Of a stretch of DNA of 53,762 nt, positions 18,930 through 27,904 are shown in pieces (position 1 is the first letter of the stretch; every line of letters begins with the position of its first letter). The DNA is from an uncultured Ignavibacteriales bacterium (lineage in GTDB: Bacteria > Bacteroidota > Ignavibacteria > Ignavibacteriales > Ignavibacteriaceae). The position numbers and the translations under genes were made by a program. A model generated the notes under the pieces. The model was not told where the DNA came from. It worked only from the letters and a program-made list of their open reading frames with translations, and ran no database searches. The DNA is taken from assembly GCA_903929035.1 (NCBI GenBank), contig CAIYTF010000022.1, positions 1 through 53,762 of the forward strand. The letters run 5' to 3'.

Positions 18930-19021
18930 CTGCTGTCGAATTTTAGTTTCATTCAGCTTCCTGCTTAAATAATGATTCACGTTCCCACCCCTTCGGGAAT
19001 CCCATTGCAGTAACATCGGTA
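18930..19021. repeat. Direct repeat, copy A: duplicated abi/res junction
   Basis: This 92-bp stretch is about 95% identical to 22481-22572, in the same orientation. It contains the end of abi and the first seven codons of res on the minus strand (MKLKFDS), after which the res reading frame stops. On its high-coordinate side it runs without a gap into the truncated GT9 copy. The joint falls in the short homology GATATTT shared by both parents. Confidence 0.9.
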
Positions 19022-19515
19022 TTTTGATATTTTTCTGCAGGTCGTCACTCAAGTGCATTTCCGGCAGTACACGCCAATTTCTAATTAGACTTTCATCGTC
19101 TAAAAAAACAAAATGCCGCTGCACCTCGTGATAATCTTTTCTGTAAGGTATTCTGTGTTTATAGGCAATCGCGCAGGCACTTGTAGAATAGCCATAGGTT
19201 TCTTTCACTCCTGAAGAAAAGGCAATCACCGTGCTGCGGAAAGAACGATGCAGTGAATATATTTTAGTATATGAATATTTCCGGAGTGACCTCGCGAATG
19301 CAATTGTTGCCCATAAACTTTTGTGCTTTCCCTTCTTATCTAAATATATGAATAACAGACACCGCGGGACAAGATGCAAATATCTCGACATTTACAGGAA
19401 TGGTAACAACGTCAATTTGCGCGCCTGTCTTTTGCTTTAGTATTTGAATAAACGGAAAGCTCAATACCGCATCACCAAGAAATGCAGTTTGAATTACTAA
19501 TATTTTTTTAGGCAT
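19022..19515 (-). pseudogene. Truncated, frameshifted copy of the GT9 glycosyltransferase
   Basis: Codes for roughly the first 165 residues of the GT9 protein at 13586-14602, over 90% identical in protein. It starts at the same ATG (19515), carries an inserted A near 19343 that breaks the frame after SVIHI, and stops matching after LSDDLQKNIK, where the abi/res junction repeat begins. The C-terminal nucleotide-sugar-binding domain is absent, so it cannot be active. The 53 nt between it and the res stop presumably show the ancestral res-GT9 spacing. Confidence 0.92.
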
Positions 19516-19568: not shown

Positions 19569-22502
19569 TTACACATCCGATGCTCTTGTTACAACCGCGA
19601 GGTCCATATCCAAGGCACGGAAATGTTTTTGACCGCACCGCACTTTATCTGCTTCGGAATTTCTTAATTTCAAATAATCACGATTCCCTTTTGTCTCTTT
19701 AACAAGGTAAATCGTTTGTTCATCCTGCTTAACTATTGCCCAATCAGGATTATATTCACCAATAGGTGTTTCCACTATAAACCAGCGTGGTAGTTTGACA
19801 AACAGCTTAATGTCTTCGCGTTTATCTAATTCTTCCGCGAAGTTTTTTTCGATTTCACTGTCATAAACTACAGCATCATACACCGATTTTTTAACTTCGA
19901 GTCTGTTACTGAGATAGCTAAAAATTTCTTTGTCCTTGAACAATTGCATACTCCATTCCTGAAATGCAATTTTTTCATATTTAATACCGTCAATCATCAA
20001 CCGATGCAATTCATTTCGTATTATGGACACAACCGAATCCATATACTTTTGCGGGTTAATGATATATTCCGCGAGACGGTTACTCTTTGTAACTATTTCA
20101 TAGATTGTTTTACGGGTGAGTTCAGTTTCGCTCTGTATATAACTGAGCATATCGGGCAGCGGACCTGAATATCTTACGTCCGTTGTATATGAACGGGTTT
20201 CCTCTGAAACAATGCCTTTTGGCTGAACCTGTAGTTGCCCCTCCCTGTAAAGTATTTTAACGGGTGCTATCCTGTCCATTTTTATTATAGCTTTTACACA
20301 GTTAGCAATCAAATCTTCCGTTGTAAAATTCACTTGATATGTGGTTTTATGCTTGATCCTATTCCAAAGCTGTTTAAATTCTGTATCTAAGTCTTGCTCG
20401 GATAATTCTTTTTGAGATTTGAGCCTCAGCTTACGCGGTTCCTCATCTCGTTTGATATGCCTGTCAAGACGGTAAGTCTGCATTACGGCAATTATATCCT
20501 GTTCAACATCAAAAAACTCTTTTGAGAGTTTTAGTGTAAAATCTTTTGTCTCAGGTGCAAAAGCACTTTGTATTTTGCCCTTATCGTCAATGAAATCATT
20601 CTTTGAAAGTTCATTCCATATCTGCACCGAGTTATCACGCCCGACTGTTTGTTCAATATCTTCAACTATACGGCTCACTTTAGCAAATGCAAATAATGGT
20701 ATCTTACCAAAAGTAACTCCGCAATCTTCTTCATATTCAGTTTGCAGGTTCTTGGCAAACTCTTCATAACTTTCGTTGGCAATAACGGTAAGTTTATTCA
20801 GGTTGTCATCGAATACACGCTCTCCAAGTTGATTGACGGGCAAGCGCAATCCTCGACCGATTTCCTGCCGTTTTTTCATTCCCGAGCGGGTTTCGTTGAG
20901 AGTGCAAATCTGGAAAACATTCGGATTATCCCAACCTTCTCGTAATGCTGAGTGCGAGAAAATGAATTTCAGCGGTTCATCAAGTGAAAGCAATTGCTCT
21001 TTGTTTCGCATAATTTTGGCATAGGTATCATCGTCATCTTTAGTGGATCCGGAAGTATCTTTCATAATTCCCTTTTTGTCCTGAGAAAAATATCCATCGT
21101 GTATTTTGTCTACTGGGAATAAATCAAGTTCCTTGTATTGAGGAAGTTTTATGAGGTCAAGATAATGTTTCTCAAATAGTGTAGAGAATTTACCCTGAAC
21201 AGTTTTCCATTCTTCGTTATATGAACGATAGTTTGCAACTCGGTCAATGAAGAACAGAGAAAGTATTTTGATACCTCTGTCTTTAAACTGCAATTCCTTA
21301 TCGAGATGCTTTTTGATTGTATTTCGAATCTGTACACTTGATATATCATCCCGAAGACCGCCGCGCTCCTGTCCCAAAGCTAATCTGCCTGCATTAAAAT
21401 CTATATACTCGTTTCCCTGTTCAGCATTAATTTCTAATACTTCAAAACCGTTTTTGTATGCAGCCCGCTCATTCGATAGCGTGAAGAGATCAGTGTTTTG
21501 TTTTACCCAAAAATCTTTCTCAGTAACGCCATTCTTAGATTGGATATGTATTCTAATCTTGGCTTTGATTCCTTTTTTGTTATCAACGGCAAGCAATTTT
21601 ATATATGCCTCATTTTGGTCACCTTTGCCGCTAACTTCCGCCACGATAATTTGTTTCACTAATTTAAGCTCAAATGCCTTAACCGGATCAAGTTTGTAAA
21701 CTTGATTAAATAAGTTTCTATGAGTGGCGGAGTATCTGAAAATACAAAGCGGGCTGAGAGATTTTATTGCATCCTGCGCCCTTGGTGTATTATCAACAGA
21801 TTGGGGCTCATCTATAATCACTATCGGGTTTGCAGCTTGGACAAATTCGATAGGTTTGTGTCCGGACAGCTTATCGTTTTCCTTAAAAATTACATTGCTT
21901 TTTTTGTCATCATCACTGTTTGAAAAATCCTTGCGAAAAGCATCAATGTTTATAATCATTATCTGCAATTGATTGCTTGCAGCGAACTGCCGCAGGCGGT
22001 TGGATTTCTTTGAATCATAAACGAAATGCTCAAACTCAATATTGTTATAGAGTGCAAGAAAGTGTTCGCGAGTTACCTGAATATTTTTCAGGGTTCCTTC
22101 TCTGATAGCAACACTTGGCACTACAATAATAAATTTCTTGAACCCATACTTTTGGCACAGCTCGAAAATAGTACGAAGATATACATAAGTTTTACCTGTA
22201 CCTGTTTCCATTTCAACCGAAAAATTAAGACCGTTAATCGCGAATTGATGATAAGAGGTTAAATCCAAGTCAGATTTTTGCTGAATCTGGTTTAGATTTT
22301 TATGCATTGCCTCTGAGTTTAGGAGGAGATTATTGCCAATACCTTGCTCATTTTGCAGAATACTTGTCTGACCAACTGCTGCGGCTGTATAAATCTCTAT
22401 TGAAAAGTCACTCTTGTTGAGCGGCTGCCCGTCAAATAATTCGACTAAACTGTTTACCGCGTCAATTTGGTATTGCTGGTTGCTGTCGAATTTTAGTTTC
22501 AT
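19569..22502 (-). CDS. res: Type III restriction endonuclease subunit Res
   Basis: Helicase-nuclease of a type III R-M system, acting in complex with Mod. The SF2 helicase core has motif I METGTGKTY (98-106), a DEPQ Walker B in VIIDEPQSVDN, the SAT-like FRYSATHRN, and the C-terminal RecA motifs SHSALREGWDNPNVFQIC and RQEIGRGLRLPVN. The nuclease motif PD-(D/E)XK is at the C-terminus: Pro919-Asp920 (YNPDWAIV) and Glu936-Thr-Lys938 (VKETKGN). At 977 residues it is full length and intact. It overlaps abi by ATGA, so its translation is coupled to abi and not directly to mod. Confidence 0.95.
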   Translation of the reverse strand: MKLKFDSNQQYQIDAVNSLVELFDGQPLNKSDFSIEIYTAAAVGQTSILQNEQGIGNNLLLNSEAMHKNLNQIQQKSDLDLTSYHQFAINGLNFSVEMETGTGKTYVYLRTIFELCQKYGFKKFIIVVPSVAIREGTLKNIQVTREHFLALYNNIEFEHFVYDSKKSNRLRQFAASNQLQIMIINIDAFRKDFSNSDDDKKSNVIFKENDKLSGHKPIEFVQAANPIVIIDEPQSVDNTPRAQDAIKSLSPLCIFRYSATHRNLFNQVYKLDPVKAFELKLVKQIIVAEVSGKGDQNEAYIKLLAVDNKKGIKAKIRIHIQSKNGVTEKDFWVKQNTDLFTLSNERAAYKNGFEVLEINAEQGNEYIDFNAGRLALGQERGGLRDDISSVQIRNTIKKHLDKELQFKDRGIKILSLFFIDRVANYRSYNEEWKTVQGKFSTLFEKHYLDLIKLPQYKELDLFPVDKIHDGYFSQDKKGIMKDTSGSTKDDDDTYAKIMRNKEQLLSLDEPLKFIFSHSALREGWDNPNVFQICTLNETRSGMKKRQEIGRGLRLPVNQLGERVFDDNLNKLTVIANESYEEFAKNLQTEYEEDCGVTFGKIPLFAFAKVSRIVEDIEQTVGRDNSVQIWNELSKNDFIDDKGKIQSAFAPETKDFTLKLSKEFFDVEQDIIAVMQTYRLDRHIKRDEEPRKLRLKSQKELSEQDLDTEFKQLWNRIKHKTTYQVNFTTEDLIANCVKAIIKMDRIAPVKILYREGQLQVQPKGIVSEETRSYTTDVRYSGPLPDMLSYIQSETELTRKTIYEIVTKSNRLAEYIINPQKYMDSVVSIIRNELHRLMIDGIKYEKIAFQEWSMQLFKDKEIFSYLSNRLEVKKSVYDAVVYDSEIEKNFAEELDKREDIKLFVKLPRWFIVETPIGEYNPDWAIVKQDEQTIYLVKETKGNRDYLKLRNSEADKVRCGQKHFRALDMDLAVVTRASDV

Positions 22503-22572
22503 TCAGCTTCCTGCTTAAATACTAATTCACGTTCCCACCCCTTCGGGAATCCCATTGCAGTAACGTCGGTAT
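22481..22572. repeat. Direct repeat, copy B: native abi/res junction
   Basis: The parental copy of the 92-bp repeat at 18930-19021. Here both genes continue on either side, so this is the original junction and the other copy is the duplicate. Confidence 0.9.
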
Positions 22573-23404
22573 GTGGATATTTACTTAATAATGATTTGAA
22601 CTTCGAAATAAAATCATTTGTGGGAGAAATGATTGACAAAAAATGAGATATTATCGAGATAACAATATAGATACGCTTATTATTGATTTCTAAGTTTTCC
22701 AGCCAACCAGTAATTTCTGCCTTTGGCAGAACAGGGATGACACCAAGTCTTCTATTCCACAAACGTGCATGATGGGCACTTAAATTTCTTACATACGCGA
22801 GAGTATGAATCCAAGATGAAAATACCTGATACGGTAGATTATATAATTTTGCTACGTTTTTTTGAATTTTCCGCACATTGATATTTTCAAACAATTGAGA
22901 GATAGTCCCAAATGAAGCGATTTCAAGGCTCATCCAAACTGGCGGGATTTCATCGGAGTATTTACTAAAGAAATGAACCAAAAATTCTTCATCTGAGCGG
23001 GCAAGTTCATCCTTTAGTTTTGAAAGATGACTTGAATACCTTTTCTGATTGTAAAAGATCGAATTGTTTGTGATCCAAAATGCACCATAATTATAAGCAA
23101 GCTCATATAGTATATTTGTTCTGACAGAAACTTCTATTTCAGCAATTGCACTAAAAACGAGACTTCTTAATCCTTTATCAAAAGCATATAAATCTAAAAT
23201 ATTTTGGAATTCTGTTCCGTTCTTAAAAATGTGATTGGGCTTATCTTCAAGAAAGGGAAACATATATGCTGAAAGTCTATAATAATTGACATGTGAAAGA
23301 GTGTGTTCAGCAAAATCATCATCAGGAATTATTAGTCCTCTTTTCTTTAGTAAGGAGACTTGTTCGGGATATGAAAGGACGGGTTTTGTGTAGGCAATCT
23401 TCAT
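22499..23404 (-). CDS. Abi_2-family (AbiD/AbiF-like) HEPN RNase
   Basis: 301 residues, the usual length. The family is recognised by the N-terminal LSYPEQVSLLKKRGLIIPDD, HVNYYRLSAYMFPF (38-51), the helix AIAEIEVSVRTNILYELAY (87-104) and the C-terminal YVRNLSAHHARLWNRRLG. Arg206-x4-His211 in RNLSAH is the HEPN RNase motif. AbiD/AbiF proteins abort phage infection, and AbiF-type proteins have been proposed as relatives of the Cas13 ancestor (general knowledge). Three promoter-hairpin units stand directly upstream; the last U-tract ends about 6 nt before the ATG. The gene overlaps res by ATGA. Confidence 0.9.
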   Translation of the reverse strand: MKIAYTKPVLSYPEQVSLLKKRGLIIPDDDFAEHTLSHVNYYRLSAYMFPFLEDKPNHIFKNGTEFQNILDLYAFDKGLRSLVFSAIAEIEVSVRTNILYELAYNYGAFWITNNSIFYNQKRYSSHLSKLKDELARSDEEFLVHFFSKYSDEIPPVWMSLEIASFGTISQLFENINVRKIQKNVAKLYNLPYQVFSSWIHTLAYVRNLSAHHARLWNRRLGVIPVLPKAEITGWLENLEINNKRIYIVISIISHFLSIISPTNDFISKFKSLLSKYPHTDVTAMGFPKGWERELVFKQEAE

Positions 23405-23410
23405 ATTATT

Positions 23411-23463
23411 AAAAAGAAAAAGCCCACCTATTTGAGCATCGTTGAGAGGCTTGGCGGGCGCGT
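23411..23463 (-). ncRNA. Small hairpin RNA, unit 1 (abi-proximal)
   Basis: Predicted transcript of about 50 nt starting near 23463. The hairpin (23422-23459) pairs GCCCGCC with GGTGGGC, followed by TTTTTCTTTTT and, a few bases later, the abi ATG. An inner stem CGAU/AUCG seen in the other two units has one pair lost here (G to U on the plus strand, at 23430-23431). Read-through of this weakest unit would carry transcription into abi and res. Confidence 0.7.
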
Positions 23464-23468
23464 TGATA

Positions 23469-23500
23469 CAAATATAATACTACATTATTAGAAAACCAAA
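23469..23500 (-). promoter_or_regulatory. Bacteroidota-type promoter of unit 1
   Basis: On the minus strand TTTG (23497-23500), a 20-bp spacer and TATATTTG (23469-23476) match the Bacteroidota sigma consensus TTTG-N19/20-TAnnTTTG. Predicted start is near 23463. Confidence 0.7.
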
Positions 23501-23544
23501 TATTGCAACAGTTAAATATGTGAAAATATTTCTGCCCCATAGAA

Positions 23545-23598
23545 AAAAAAGAAAATGCCCACCGATTTGAGCATCGTTGAGAGGCTTGGCGGGCGTGT
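23545..23598 (-). ncRNA. Small hairpin RNA, unit 2
   Basis: Hairpin 23557-23594 with the outer stem GCCCGCC/GGTGGGC, a 5'-side bulge, and an inner stem CGAU-GCUCAA-AUCG that stacks on it, followed by a long U-rich tract. Predicted length about 50 nt. Confidence 0.7.
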
Positions 23599-23603
23599 TG
23601 ATA

Positions 23604-23635
23604 CAAATATAATACTAAATTATTGGAAAACCAAA
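23604..23635 (-). promoter_or_regulatory. Bacteroidota-type promoter of unit 2
   Basis: TTTG (23632-23635), 20-bp spacer, TATATTTG (23604-23611) on the minus strand; same geometry as the other two units, although the surrounding bases differ. Confidence 0.7.
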
Positions 23636-23679
23636 CATTGCAAGAGGAAAATATGTGAAAATATTTTTGCCCCATAGAA

Positions 23680-23733
23680 AAGAAAGAAAAAGCCCACCGA
23701 TTTGAGCATCGTTGAGAGGCTTGGCGGGCACAT
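23680..23733 (-). ncRNA. Small hairpin RNA, unit 3 (abi-distal)
   Basis: Hairpin 23692-23729, identical to unit 2 over its 38 nt, followed by TTTTTCTTTCTTTTCT. Predicted length about 50 nt. It is the first unit downstream of the AlbA_2 gene. Confidence 0.7.
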
Positions 23734-23738
23734 TGATA

Positions 23739-23770
23739 CAAATATAATACTACATTATTGGAAAACCAAA
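23739..23770 (-). promoter_or_regulatory. Bacteroidota-type promoter of unit 3
   Basis: TTTG (23767-23770), 20-bp spacer, TATATTTG (23739-23746) on the minus strand. Homology between units ends just upstream of this TTTG, so the repeated unit is exactly promoter plus hairpin plus tail. Confidence 0.7.
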
Positions 23771-23808
23771 TAATGCTAACACACGACCAAAAAATAAGAT
23801 TCAAATTA

Positions 23809-24978
23809 TCACCCACCTTTTTTTTCAATCTGTGTAATTCGTTCTATCTTTACAGTAAATTGTTCTGCTTCAATATCGTTTATAAATTCAATGCGCGGAT
23901 ATGCTTTTGAAGCACGCAAAATTCCGCTGCCCGCGCCGCGGTATGCCAATAAATCGGGAGCAAAAGAAGCTATTATATTATTACGCGTGCGTCTTATCCC
24001 TAGTTTTATCTGCGGCACCGTTAGATTATTAGGGAGTTTCCCCGGGTTAATTATTTCTATCCTGTTTTCAAAAATAAATATTTTTATCGAATCATTAATA
24101 AAATAATCCCTGTGGATTAACGCGTTAACTAATAACTCGGAGAACACCACTTCCGGTATTTCTAAAATACCGATACTATTGAAAGATTGTCCGCCTTGTC
24201 TTCTTTGTAATTTCGAGATAATAAAGTCGAATCCCTTACTATAAATATCGTCCAACGATCCAATTAAATTATCACTGCTTAGATATTGTGTATCTTCTAT
24301 ATTATTTCCGGGGAACCATATAGCTGTTATAAAAAAAGCAGGCAGCAACCGCTGGAGATTCCTCCCAAATAATAATGCACCCGCGGCATTTAAATGCCCG
24401 TCCTCACCCAGACGCAAATTGGCAATATGCCGCGGTAATTCGCTTGGTTCACACGGTTCATTATATTTTTTTTCAAAGAATGTCCTGAATTTCTCGAAAT
24501 TCAAATCACGGAGAGTGCTGTGCGGAATGATTCTCTCCTCGGCATAAAGATTTCCGCTGCTTTGAAGTAAACGGGCAAGTTCTTCCCTGCTTGTAACCTT
24601 CCTTTTATCCGACCCGTTCTTTAAGAATATTAGTCCGTCCTTATCACAATGGGGTTTATCTGTACCTTGTGGAACAGTAACCACAATTATTTTTTTATTA
24701 TTTACACTGACTGTTTCAGTCGATATAATTATGGAAGATTTCACGTGCTCTTGCGCGGCAGTGGTCAACAGGTTGTTTATCCGCTGAATATCCTGAAACG
24801 TAAGCCCTATAATATCACCGGTTTTATCATTCACCCCGATAATTATCGATCCGCCTGAACTATTTGCGAAAGCGACTATTTCTTGGGATATACTAACGGC
24901 ATTATTTACATCCTGCTTAAACTGAACTTTGCTTGTTTCGCCGCCGCTGATTATGCCAAGTATTTCTTGTGTTTCCAT
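23809..24978 (-). CDS. AlbA_2/Schlafen-type ATP-binding protein
   Basis: 389 residues with two domains. The N-terminal AlbA_2 domain (about 10-120) shows SKVQFKQDV, EIVAFANSSGGSIIIGVND and DKPHCDKDGLIFLKNGSDKR. The C-terminal half (about 260-385) is a GHKL/HATPase_c_4-like domain with ELLVNALIHRDYF, IEIINPGKLP and GAGSGILRA. Such proteins are annotated as putative transcriptional regulators or helicase-like ATP-binding proteins and are common in defence islands; their role in R-M loci is not known to me. It follows a shortened relative by 50 nt and precedes the RNA array. Confidence 0.85.
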   Translation of the reverse strand: METQEILGIISGGETSKVQFKQDVNNAVSISQEIVAFANSSGGSIIIGVNDKTGDIIGLTFQDIQRINNLLTTAAQEHVKSSIIISTETVSVNNKKIIVVTVPQGTDKPHCDKDGLIFLKNGSDKRKVTSREELARLLQSSGNLYAEERIIPHSTLRDLNFEKFRTFFEKKYNEPCEPSELPRHIANLRLGEDGHLNAAGALLFGRNLQRLLPAFFITAIWFPGNNIEDTQYLSSDNLIGSLDDIYSKGFDFIISKLQRRQGGQSFNSIGILEIPEVVFSELLVNALIHRDYFINDSIKIFIFENRIEIINPGKLPNNLTVPQIKLGIRRTRNNIIASFAPDLLAYRGAGSGILRASKAYPRIEFINDIEAEQFTVKIERITQIEKKGG

Positions 24979-25028: not shown

Positions 25029-25865
25029 TTATTGTTCTTGCCATCTTTCACTCATTGGTATCTTTACTGAAAATTTGGTCATTAGTGAAATATTAAATTC
25101 TGCAGAACCATTGCCATTCTCTATCAGTAATTGCTGCGCGTACCTGATTCCGAAATTGTATTTATTTACATATCCCAATACCTTCATAGCTTCAGCTAAT
25201 ACCGGATTGCGGTAATCACTTGCATTTGGAAAATTTTCAGGTCGTACATCTCCATACAATCCCCCGGGATTAATAATCTCAATCCTGTCATCAAATTCAT
25301 ACAAGTATATAGGCGCATTTGATTGATAATCACGATGCATAATGGCATTCATTACAAGTTCACGCATTGCCCATAACGGAAAGTTTTCAACAACAGATTC
25401 CCTCATACCTGAACTTCGCACGCTCTTGGATTGAATTACAATAATTTTAAAGAAATTATCAATATCTTTTAATACATCCACTAATGCACCGGAAAACCGT
25501 TTGTCAACCGGTTCAGGAGAAATGTCCTTTCCTTTATATCGTAAATACTGAATATAGGCACCGGGGAAAAAATATAACGGATTTGTTCCAAATAAAAGAA
25601 TTCCTGCATTTGTTGGACAATCATATACATTGTCATAAATACGCAGAGAGGCTAATTGTTGTTTTAAATCGCGGTTATTTGCCGCTATGCTTTCCTTATC
25701 TATCGCTTTGGGTTGATAGGTGTTTTTAAATAAATTAATATCCAAATCGTTCAATGAACTTTCTCTGCAGGGCTGCATATCAAAATTTTTAACGGATAGA
25801 GTACGTTCAATCCTATCTGACTCAATATTTCCGATTAATACTAATAGTTCTTCGTTAGTCAACAT
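25029..25865 (-). CDS. AlbA/HATPase-type protein with internal deletion
   Basis: 278 residues, about 150-200 fewer than relatives. The start LTNEELLVLIGNIESDRIER and following SVKNF resemble the beginning of an AlbA_2 domain, but the sequence then jumps to FDMQPCRESSLNDLD, normally found well beyond that domain. The central AlbA_2 core (FANxxGG, IIGVND) is missing, in frame. The C-terminal ATP-binding half is intact: ELVMNAIMHRDYQ, IEIINPGGLYG and NFGIRYAQQLL. It sits 12 nt downstream of mod. It may be an ATP-binding remnant or a partner of the adjacent full-length relative. Confidence 0.75.
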   Translation of the reverse strand: MLTNEELLVLIGNIESDRIERTLSVKNFDMQPCRESSLNDLDINLFKNTYQPKAIDKESIAANNRDLKQQLASLRIYDNVYDCPTNAGILLFGTNPLYFFPGAYIQYLRYKGKDISPEPVDKRFSGALVDVLKDIDNFFKIIVIQSKSVRSSGMRESVVENFPLWAMRELVMNAIMHRDYQSNAPIYLYEFDDRIEIINPGGLYGDVRPENFPNASDYRNPVLAEAMKVLGYVNKYNFGIRYAQQLLIENGNGSAEFNISLMTKFSVKIPMSERWQEQ

Positions 25866-25877
25866 ATTTTTTCCTTC

Positions 25878-27836
25878 CTACACCGTCTGAAATTTTAACA
25901 CTTCATTACTCTTCATTATCAGCACCGCGTTTGCCTTGAGCTGGTCATCATTCTGAAATCCTTCATCAAGACAGATAACTCGAACCGGCTTTCTCTCTGC
26001 TATCGCTTTTATGAGTTCGTGGGTTAGTTTTTTTTCAAGGCATATCAGCAGCGCGCCGTCTAATATTGAAAAAACCTGATAGTCTTCAATTTGAAATTTT
26101 TCAATTTTGGCGGTTAAACTGAAACCTGATTTAAGAAGCAGTTCATACAGAATTGATTCTTGCTCAGCTTCAGGTGAAATGTGTTCAAGATGTAGAGCAA
26201 GTTGTTCCCGAATTGCATCCTGTGTTTTTTCTATATTGGCATTCCAAATATTGAAATTTGATTTTTGAAGTTTGAATACTTTGAAACCTAAGTCTTGTGA
26301 ATTGCTAATCTTGCTTTCGGAAGTCTCAAATAATCGCGGGGTATTTTGCCGGCTTTCAGCATTTTGGGATTCTTCTTCATTCAGCTTTTTAATTACTCTG
26401 CGTATCCGTTCCTTTCCTATATCGGCAATTGTTTTGTAGCCGGATTTTTCAGCCAAACTTCCTTTTCCTAAAGTCTCTGGGAGCTGAACACAAATAAAAT
26501 TTCGACTTCCACCATCGTCCTTATTTTGTTCGATTACAGCCTGCGCAGTGGAACAAGAACCTGCAAAAAAATCAAGCACTATTTGTTCATCAGAAAAATT
26601 ACATTTTATTAGGTTTTTCAATAACTTTAATGGCTTATTATATTCAAAGTATTCGGAAGTATTAAATATTTGAATCAGTTCATTTTCGCTCTCTTGATTG
26701 TCGCCCCACTCACTAAGCAATAAATCGGTTATAGATTTACGCTTCCCTATTTCCTCGATTGATACATCCCTGCGCAATCCTTTTTGCGATGTAATAAATA
26801 ATAAATCATTTTTAATATACTCATCTATACTTTGTTGGCTTACTGAAAATTTAGAAACAACTTCCACATTATTTATCGTCTTTCCATTTTTGAAGTTTAC
26901 ATCCGATAAATACTCTACCTCCATAGTTCTGATTTTATATCTTCCTTTAGGAATAACACCTGAGCCATTTAACTTAACCCTAACACCCTCCTTAAATATG
27001 CGTTTGCATTCCTTATTCGATACATTAATAACTTTTTTTGTTGAATCTGATGTGCCGTCAATCGATAATTTTTCCAAGGATAATTTATCTTTGGAAAAGA
27101 TAAGAACATATTCCATCATTTTTGCGGTATGTGTCGCAAGAAAAGAAGGCTGCTTTTTTCTTTTCCACTTTAGAATATCAATAAAATTTTGTTCGCCAAA
27201 TATCTCATTGCACAAAGCTCTTAAATTTTGAACTTCATTATCGTCAATACTAATAAAAATGACCCCGTCTTCCTTCAACAAATTTTTGGCAAGAAATAAC
27301 CGCGGATACATCATACTCATCCATTTACTATGGAATCGCCCGTCAGTATCCGTGTTTGTGCTGAATTTCCGTCCTTCGCCGTCAATTTGTCCCGTATATT
27401 CGAGGTAAGTATCGAGGCTTTCGGAGTAGTTATCGGGATATATGAACTCATTTCCTGTATTATATGGCGGGTCAATGTATATCATTTTTATTTTACCGAT
27501 ATACGATTTCTGCAAAAGTTTCAGAACCTCAAGGTTGTCGCCTTCAATAAATAGATTTTCCGTTGTATCGAAATTTACGCTTTCTTCTCTGACGGGAACA
27601 AGGGTTGCTATGCTCGGCTGCTGAATGGTTTTGAAGCAATCGGATTTCCCGGGCCAATTCATACCGTACCGCTCCTTGCCGGCATCCACGTCTTCGCCGA
27701 GAGTTAGTTTCAGCCTGTCCCAGTCAATTTTATTTCCTTCGGTAAAAGCTTCGGGGAATAACTGCTTTAGCTTAGTTATCTGTTCTTCTTTAATATCCAT
27801 TGAGGTTAACGGTAATTTTTCAATATCTAATTTCAT
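25878..27836 (-). CDS. mod: Type III DNA methyltransferase subunit Mod
   Basis: Adenine-N6 methyltransferase and recognition subunit of the type III system. Beta-class order: catalytic motif IV IDPPYNTGNEFIY (about residues 121-133 from the chosen start), a central target-recognition region (about 230-400), then motif I as DFFAGSCSTAQAV. A GTG at 27851 would add five residues but overlaps the upstream gene; the ATG at 27836 begins MKLDIEKLPL, the usual N-terminus, and follows GGTGGAAG. About 652 residues. Its partner res lies 3.4 kb further on, after three other genes. Confidence 0.93.
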   Translation of the reverse strand: MKLDIEKLPLTSMDIKEEQITKLKQLFPEAFTEGNKIDWDRLKLTLGEDVDAGKERYGMNWPGKSDCFKTIQQPSIATLVPVREESVNFDTTENLFIEGDNLEVLKLLQKSYIGKIKMIYIDPPYNTGNEFIYPDNYSESLDTYLEYTGQIDGEGRKFSTNTDTDGRFHSKWMSMMYPRLFLAKNLLKEDGVIFISIDDNEVQNLRALCNEIFGEQNFIDILKWKRKKQPSFLATHTAKMMEYVLIFSKDKLSLEKLSIDGTSDSTKKVINVSNKECKRIFKEGVRVKLNGSGVIPKGRYKIRTMEVEYLSDVNFKNGKTINNVEVVSKFSVSQQSIDEYIKNDLLFITSQKGLRRDVSIEEIGKRKSITDLLLSEWGDNQESENELIQIFNTSEYFEYNKPLKLLKNLIKCNFSDEQIVLDFFAGSCSTAQAVIEQNKDDGGSRNFICVQLPETLGKGSLAEKSGYKTIADIGKERIRRVIKKLNEEESQNAESRQNTPRLFETSESKISNSQDLGFKVFKLQKSNFNIWNANIEKTQDAIREQLALHLEHISPEAEQESILYELLLKSGFSLTAKIEKFQIEDYQVFSILDGALLICLEKKLTHELIKAIAERKPVRVICLDEGFQNDDQLKANAVLIMKSNEVLKFQTV

Positions 27837-27838
27837 AC

Positions 27839-27904
27839 TCAATACTTCCACCTGTTATGCAGCCAAAGCCACGCTTCAGGCTGCTGCCTGATTGCATCTT
27901 CAAG
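27839..27904 (-). pseudogene. Remnant of an LpxL/HtrB lipid A acyltransferase 3' end
   Basis: The reading frame encodes PEAWLWLHNRWK followed by one residue and a stop, which is how lauroyl/myristoyl acyltransferases of lipid A synthesis end (PEQWxWxHRRWK). No other part of such a gene is seen nearby. Its presence next to a defence island that ends at an LPS glycosyltransferase suggests an ancestral lpxL-GT9 order (inference). Confidence 0.7.

Follow-up and report, generated by a model that had tools for sequence, protein, structure and literature searches.

Three tandem abiF RNA units precede an AbiF-type HEPN gene within a type III restriction-modification operon of an Ignavibacteriales bacterium

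Anatomy of the array and its operon

The window, by which we mean the whole stretch of 53,762 nt analysed here, derives from an uncultured Ignavibacteriales bacterium and carries a type III restriction-modification (R-M) operon, in which mod and res lie on one strand with accessory genes in between. On the minus strand the order is an AAA ATPase gene, the methyltransferase gene mod (25878..27851; PADLOC MTase_III, 2.7e-194), a HATPase_c_4 (RecG-C-like) accessory gene (25029..25865; Pfam), a Schlafen/AlbA_2 gene with a RecG-C-like ATPase part (23809..24978; Pfam), which is likewise an accessory of the operon and sits just upstream of the array, then the RNA array itself, abiF (22499..23404) and finally res (19569..22502; PADLOC REase_III, 1.8e-301). 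The abiF stop and the res start overlap (ATG/TGA).

The array comprises three tandem minus-strand units with a period of exactly 135 nt, and the promoter-like sequence, hairpin and U-tract that the initial annotation had described recur in every one. From 5' to 3' a unit consists of a promoter-like -33/-7 element TTTG-N20-TATATTTG, an interval of about 11 nt, a hairpin of 37 nt and a U-rich tail. The promoter-like element is present in 3/3 units, with minus-strand starts at 23770, 23635 and 23500. Unit 1, the gene-distal copy (23682..23770), is made up of the promoter-like element (23739-23770), the hairpin (23692-23728) and a U-rich tail at about 23682-23691; unit 2 (23546..23635) has its element at 23604-23635 and its hairpin at 23557-23593, and the gene-proximal unit 3 (23411..23500) at 23469-23500 and 23422-23458, each again followed by a U-rich tail. 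The near-identity of the hairpins, also claimed at the outset, is confirmed: a single position of the 37 varies, position 30, which is changed from C to A in unit 3 (C30A) and varies freely in the abiF RNA family. Each hairpin is predicted to fold at -15.0 to -15.3 kcal/mol (z -1.7 to -2.6), and terminator-like sites, composed of a hairpin and a U-tract, number three against an expected 0.3. On the same strand, 17 nt separate the third hairpin from the abiF start codon. Units 2 and 3 are identical at 125/135 positions, and tandem duplication of the units accounts for the regular 135-nt spacing. Pairwise differences between units amount to 10-37 of 135 positions, which makes misassembly of identical repeats unlikely. 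When the array was compared at the DNA level with a plasmid collection, only two partial matches were returned.

The product of abiF, 301 aa in length, is an Abi_2 HEPN ribonuclease and the putative toxin; it matches Abi_2 in Pfam (PF07751, 2.5e-54), AbiD in PADLOC (3.2e-80) and, as its sole solved relative, PDB entry 8vz6 (Abi family protein, 3.8e-71), identified in a review as the PbAbiF-ncRNA complex (PMC12737573). A toxin of the ToxN/AbiQ kind was considered and set aside, since Abi_2 and AbiD were the only Pfam and PADLOC assignments. The Rx4H catalytic motif of the HEPN domain is present as RNLSAH at residues 206-211, and R206 and H211 align to R210 and H215 of PbAbiF, whose R210/H215 double mutant is inactive (PMC12373285). 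An abi gene with the motif RNLSAHH does follow directly on the array, as first noted, the motif being AbiF residues 206-212. An AlphaFold2 prediction for AbiF, run with no alignment, gave a mean pLDDT of 38 and the model was left out. Downstream of res, on the minus strand at 18952-19035, lies a 28-aa remnant of an AbiF C-terminus with 82% identity to residues 274-301.

Two other genera, G035 (locus L199) and G460 (L203), also have AbiF immediately ahead of res, with one RNA each and mod upstream. Across 22 res loci of the order, the window counted, the gene directly upstream is AbiF in three and a Schlafen-like gene in three (L211, L215, L222); thus accessory genes recur in the gap that separates mod from res. 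Abi_2 proteins 'embedded in R-M operons' have been listed earlier (PMC3710099). An abiF RNA with an extended apical stem, 48 nt as against 37, occurs at L199 (9700-9747) and at L200 (9498-9545), the latter without an adjoining abiF.

RNA family and selection on the hairpin

All three hairpins belong to Rfam family RF03085, 'abiF RNA', with scores of 56.2, 56.2 and 55.1 bits against a cut-off of 37, so that the gathering score is exceeded by 18-19 bits in 3/3 cases; the window motif shows no difference from the family. It had been proposed that the hairpins are better conserved than the sequence between them, and here the direction was right but the strength within the array is marginal. In the three-way comparison one of 37 hairpin positions is variable and nine of 57 in the flanks (Fisher p=0.08), and by pair the contrast gives p=0.036 for units 1 and 2 and p=0.29 for units 2 and 3; the linkers are themselves part of the recent duplication.

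Selection on the RNA, marginal within the window, is clear across species. In 29 motifs all six outer stem pairs (6/6) have two-sided changes, with a covariation score of 0.423 versus 0.162 when shuffled. This set had been picked for well-formed stems, and the pair count was therefore redone on an unpicked set of all 18 distinct motifs beside an intact abiF, in which 97/108 outer pairs are formed as against 83.6 expected and a maximum of 92 in 2000 shuffles. The stem is kept by compensatory change across homologues, and the initial annotation, which had staked its reading on hairpins being conserved upstream of related abi genes, is borne out on this point by hairpins that are both conserved and covarying. 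Positions 10, 13, 14, 17, 20, 22, 23, 25, 26, 28 and 29 are invariant in 145 motifs among the matches listed, part of this invariance being a consequence of the exact-core search described below. In the genus of genome G276, RF03085 had no match in 65 genomes, several of them with AbiF homologues; some AbiF proteins therefore lack an RF03085 RNA that can be recognised, and the AbiF of that genus perhaps has a different antitoxin RNA.

abiF RNA genes in other genomes and in phages

We surveyed the layout of 29 loci from viral contigs and at least 119 from genome contigs, retrieved with the exact core CCTCTCAACGATGCTCAAAT; with this core fixed, the sample leans to the abiF RNA subtype of the window. 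Among the matches listed, 87 of 138 distinct upstream sequences have a -7 box TAnnTTTG within 70 nt, which in 73 of the 87 starts exactly at -19 from the hairpin, and 58 of the 138 combine TAnnTTTG with TTTG at a spacing of 18-22 nt. Single-copy abiF RNAs therefore normally have a Bacteroidota promoter immediately ahead of the hairpin and, at loci with an intact abiF, are normally followed by a U-tract and, usually 10-25 nt downstream, the start codon. The initial annotation had regarded a promoter and terminator for every RNA as the special feature of the array; this is instead the normal Bacteroidota single-copy layout, seen doubled at loci L107 and L154, and what remains out of the ordinary is that there are three units and that the local duplication is recent.

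Among the matches listed, 47 motif matches adjoin an intact abiF and 44 of these have at least 400 nt upstream, 42 being single and two double; after removal of repeats about 39 distinct loci are left, some 37 single, two double and none triple. Searching those loci with the covariance model for further RNA copies found none. Of 399 genomes from one family, sampled independently, 129 had matches, and among the matches listed there was one same-strand RNA pair less than 1 kb apart (G607), in which the doubled RNA is accompanied by no more than a short remnant of abiF; a candidate in G618 was rejected because its three RNAs lie 1.3 and 2.8 kb apart. No triple unit was found elsewhere among the matches listed for the surveyed loci and the 399-genome sample, nor did the literature covered, outside which fall Weinberg 2017 and Zilberzwige-Tal 2025, yield any account of an abiF RNA array with several promoters. 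AbiF paired with abiF RNA is a known kind of toxin-antitoxin system, of which the array of three separate units is a rare local variant.

At L107 and L154 there are two units each, every unit with its own -7 box, and the doubled 37-nt hairpins are identical within each locus, with flanks agreeing at 51/83 and 46/83 positions. Selection on doubled units is better supported by these loci than by the window, although gene conversion could also have made their hairpins identical, and the upstream unit of L154 may be the residue of a second abiF cassette. Elsewhere (L105, L134, L151, L155 and others) the RNA and promoter are kept and abiF has decayed, by in-frame internal deletion (76-147 aa left) or truncation. 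At L098, L114 and L139 an abiF RNA with the usual promoter is followed, 18 nt on, by the start of another protein, MENQGEIILYQPDNEVKLEVRLE..., which by eye is RhuM-like.

Stand-alone abiF RNAs also occur in phage sequence, at L012-L018, L020-L038 and L040 (IMG/VR) and at L232, L233, L234 and L235 in named phages; the named phages with an abiF RNA are Aeromonas phage T7-Ah, Roseobacter phage CRP-143, Synechococcus phage S-SZBM1 and mycobacteriophage Thibault. A profile built from 57 AbiF proteins detected no AbiF in the stretch examined at 27/29 of the viral-contig loci. Several viral abiF RNAs adjoin tRNA genes (L014, L015, L016, L025, L026), and viral contigs L027 and L031 each have two abutting abiF hairpins with 38-nt spacing and no AbiF. 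By name, no phage group that carries the RNA is also among those in which tblastn finds AbiF, except for unnamed 'Bacteriophage' records. One cyanophage abiF sRNA has been reported, without a decoy reading (PMC9964418); judged from the sequences, it is plausible that the stand-alone RNAs of phages act as decoy antitoxins against AbiF.

Proposed function and competing explanations

RF03085 hairpins, the match to Abi_2 and PbAbiF, and the catalytic R/H pair together identify an AbiF/abiF-RNA toxin-antitoxin pair, with the RNA directly upstream of abiF and on the same strand. An RNA antitoxin joined to an AbiF HEPN toxin was the main inference of the initial annotation; such pairs have been demonstrated in relatives (PMC12373285; PMC12737573), and the inference is therefore right and was already established there. 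AbiFCd of C. difficile is toxic and is neutralised in cis and in trans by RCd22, which binds it directly, and its message arises by read-through of a terminator between RNA and toxin gene (PMC12373285). In the PbAbiF structure, as summarised in a review, one RNA is bound per monomer (PMC12737573), and the link of AbiF to Cas13 and to RF03085 has already been noted (PMC12165695).

The reading we favour, at a probability of roughly three in four, proceeds from the anatomy, RNA and protein family membership, covariation, promoter conservation and operon position observed here, and holds that the locus encodes an AbiF toxin whose RNA antitoxin is present in triplicate, every unit being a small RNA gene complete in itself. 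Transcription in each unit would start at a promoter of the Bacteroidota type and yield a predicted RNA of about 50 nt; its one abiF hairpin would bind the toxin and, together with the U-tract, serve as terminator. By analogy with relatives in which toxicity, RNA-protein binding and neutralisation have been demonstrated, and with AbiFCd-RCd22 in particular (PMC12373285), the RNA would bind to the HEPN dimer of AbiF, each monomer taking one RNA as in PbAbiF, and hold off the ribonuclease. The abiF-res message may come only from occasional read-through of the last unit's terminator, so that toxin would stay low relative to antitoxin; we infer that res, like abiF, is gated by the hairpin terminators. 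Shut-off of RNA synthesis or loss of the short RNA, as in phage infection, could then free AbiF to cut RNA. Having three units would probably raise the antitoxin dose and place three serial terminators between the mod part and abiF-res, although nearly all relatives have one unit; moreover, read-through from unit to unit may give longer transcripts than separate RNAs.

It is possible, if less probable, that the pair works and that its multiplicity has no role, one unit sufficing and two being a recent neutral tandem duplication. The exact 135-nt period and the 125/135 identity of units 2 and 3 agree with this, as do the single units of about 37 of 39 distinct intact loci among the matches listed and of L199 and L203, the closest relatives in the same R-M setting; against it, 3/3 hairpins and 3/3 promoter boxes are intact, the lone hairpin difference falls where the family varies freely, and the doubled units of L107 and L154 are older and still intact. 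The stronger claim of a selected design, in which three independently transcribed antitoxin genes set the dose and serial terminators tie the release of AbiF and restriction subunit to one RNA switch, is doubtful. A duplication as young as this one could be neutral. Between dose with serial terminators on one side and neutrality on the other, the data favour neither.

That the hairpins are mainly cis attenuators in series for abiF-res, with AbiF binding secondary, we consider improbable. Every unit does end in a terminator-like hairpin and U-tract, the last 17 nt before abiF, and termination at RCd22 also lowers downstream expression (PMC12373285), but loop and bulge conservation goes far beyond what a terminator needs (partly an effect of the exact-core search), RCd22 acts in trans by direct binding (PMC12373285), and phages have abiF RNAs with no abiF nearby. 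There is just as little to recommend a classical type III system, in which, as in ToxIN, the toxin cleaves one long three-repeat transcript to release single antitoxins: three tandem repeats do precede a ribonuclease gene and a review states that AbiF processes its RNA (PMC12737573), yet each unit carries a promoter-like element of its own and ends like a terminator, the repeats are spaced at 135 nt, not 34-36 nt, and no cleavage between motifs was observed in RCd22 (PMC12373285). A CRISPR-like precursor array guiding AbiF to targets is rejected as extremely improbable, despite the relation of AbiF to the Cas13 ancestor (PMC12165695) and the speculation of Saunier et al. that doubled motifs resemble an early array, because the sequences between hairpins are near-identical repeats with no varied spacers and lie outside the predicted RNA, and membership in CRISPR-Cas13 fails further on a single Abi_2 domain where the effector has two HEPN domains.

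Set against known systems, the toxin and triplicated antitoxin of the window resemble AbiFCd-RCd22 of Clostridioides difficile in having abiF motifs upstream of abiF, a promoter before the RNA, a terminator between and read-through (predicted here); RCd22, however, has two motifs in one transcript and a separate terminator (PMC12373285), whereas each unit of the window has one motif and one promoter and its hairpin would double as terminator. PbAbiF of Prevotellaceae (Zilberzwige-Tal et al., via PMC12373285 and PMC12737573) is a homologous 300-aa AbiF with the same catalytic R/H; these second-hand accounts mention no tandem RNA array, whereas the window has three units in tandem, within a type III R-M operon. 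ToxIN, AbiQ and CptIN likewise have a repeated RNA antitoxin before a ribonuclease toxin, but their repeats of 34-50 nt lie in one transcript, unlike units 135 nt apart with their own promoters, and their toxins are unrelated to the HEPN Abi_2 protein. PrrC is also a HEPN ribonuclease embedded in an R-M operon, EcoprrI, but that system is type I and PrrC is held by R-M proteins, whereas AbiF in its type III operon is proposed to be held by RNA.

AbiF is the proposed ancestor of Cas13, and multiplication of its antitoxin RNA bears on the question of how a lone RNA becomes a repeat array. In the window, L107 and L154 whole transcription units have been multiplied, whereas in C. difficile the motifs are multiplied within one transcript. 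In three genera one and the same RNA terminator precedes both the toxin gene and that of the restriction subunit, a testable coupling of two defences; if the array were a selected design, restriction and abortive infection would be controlled together.
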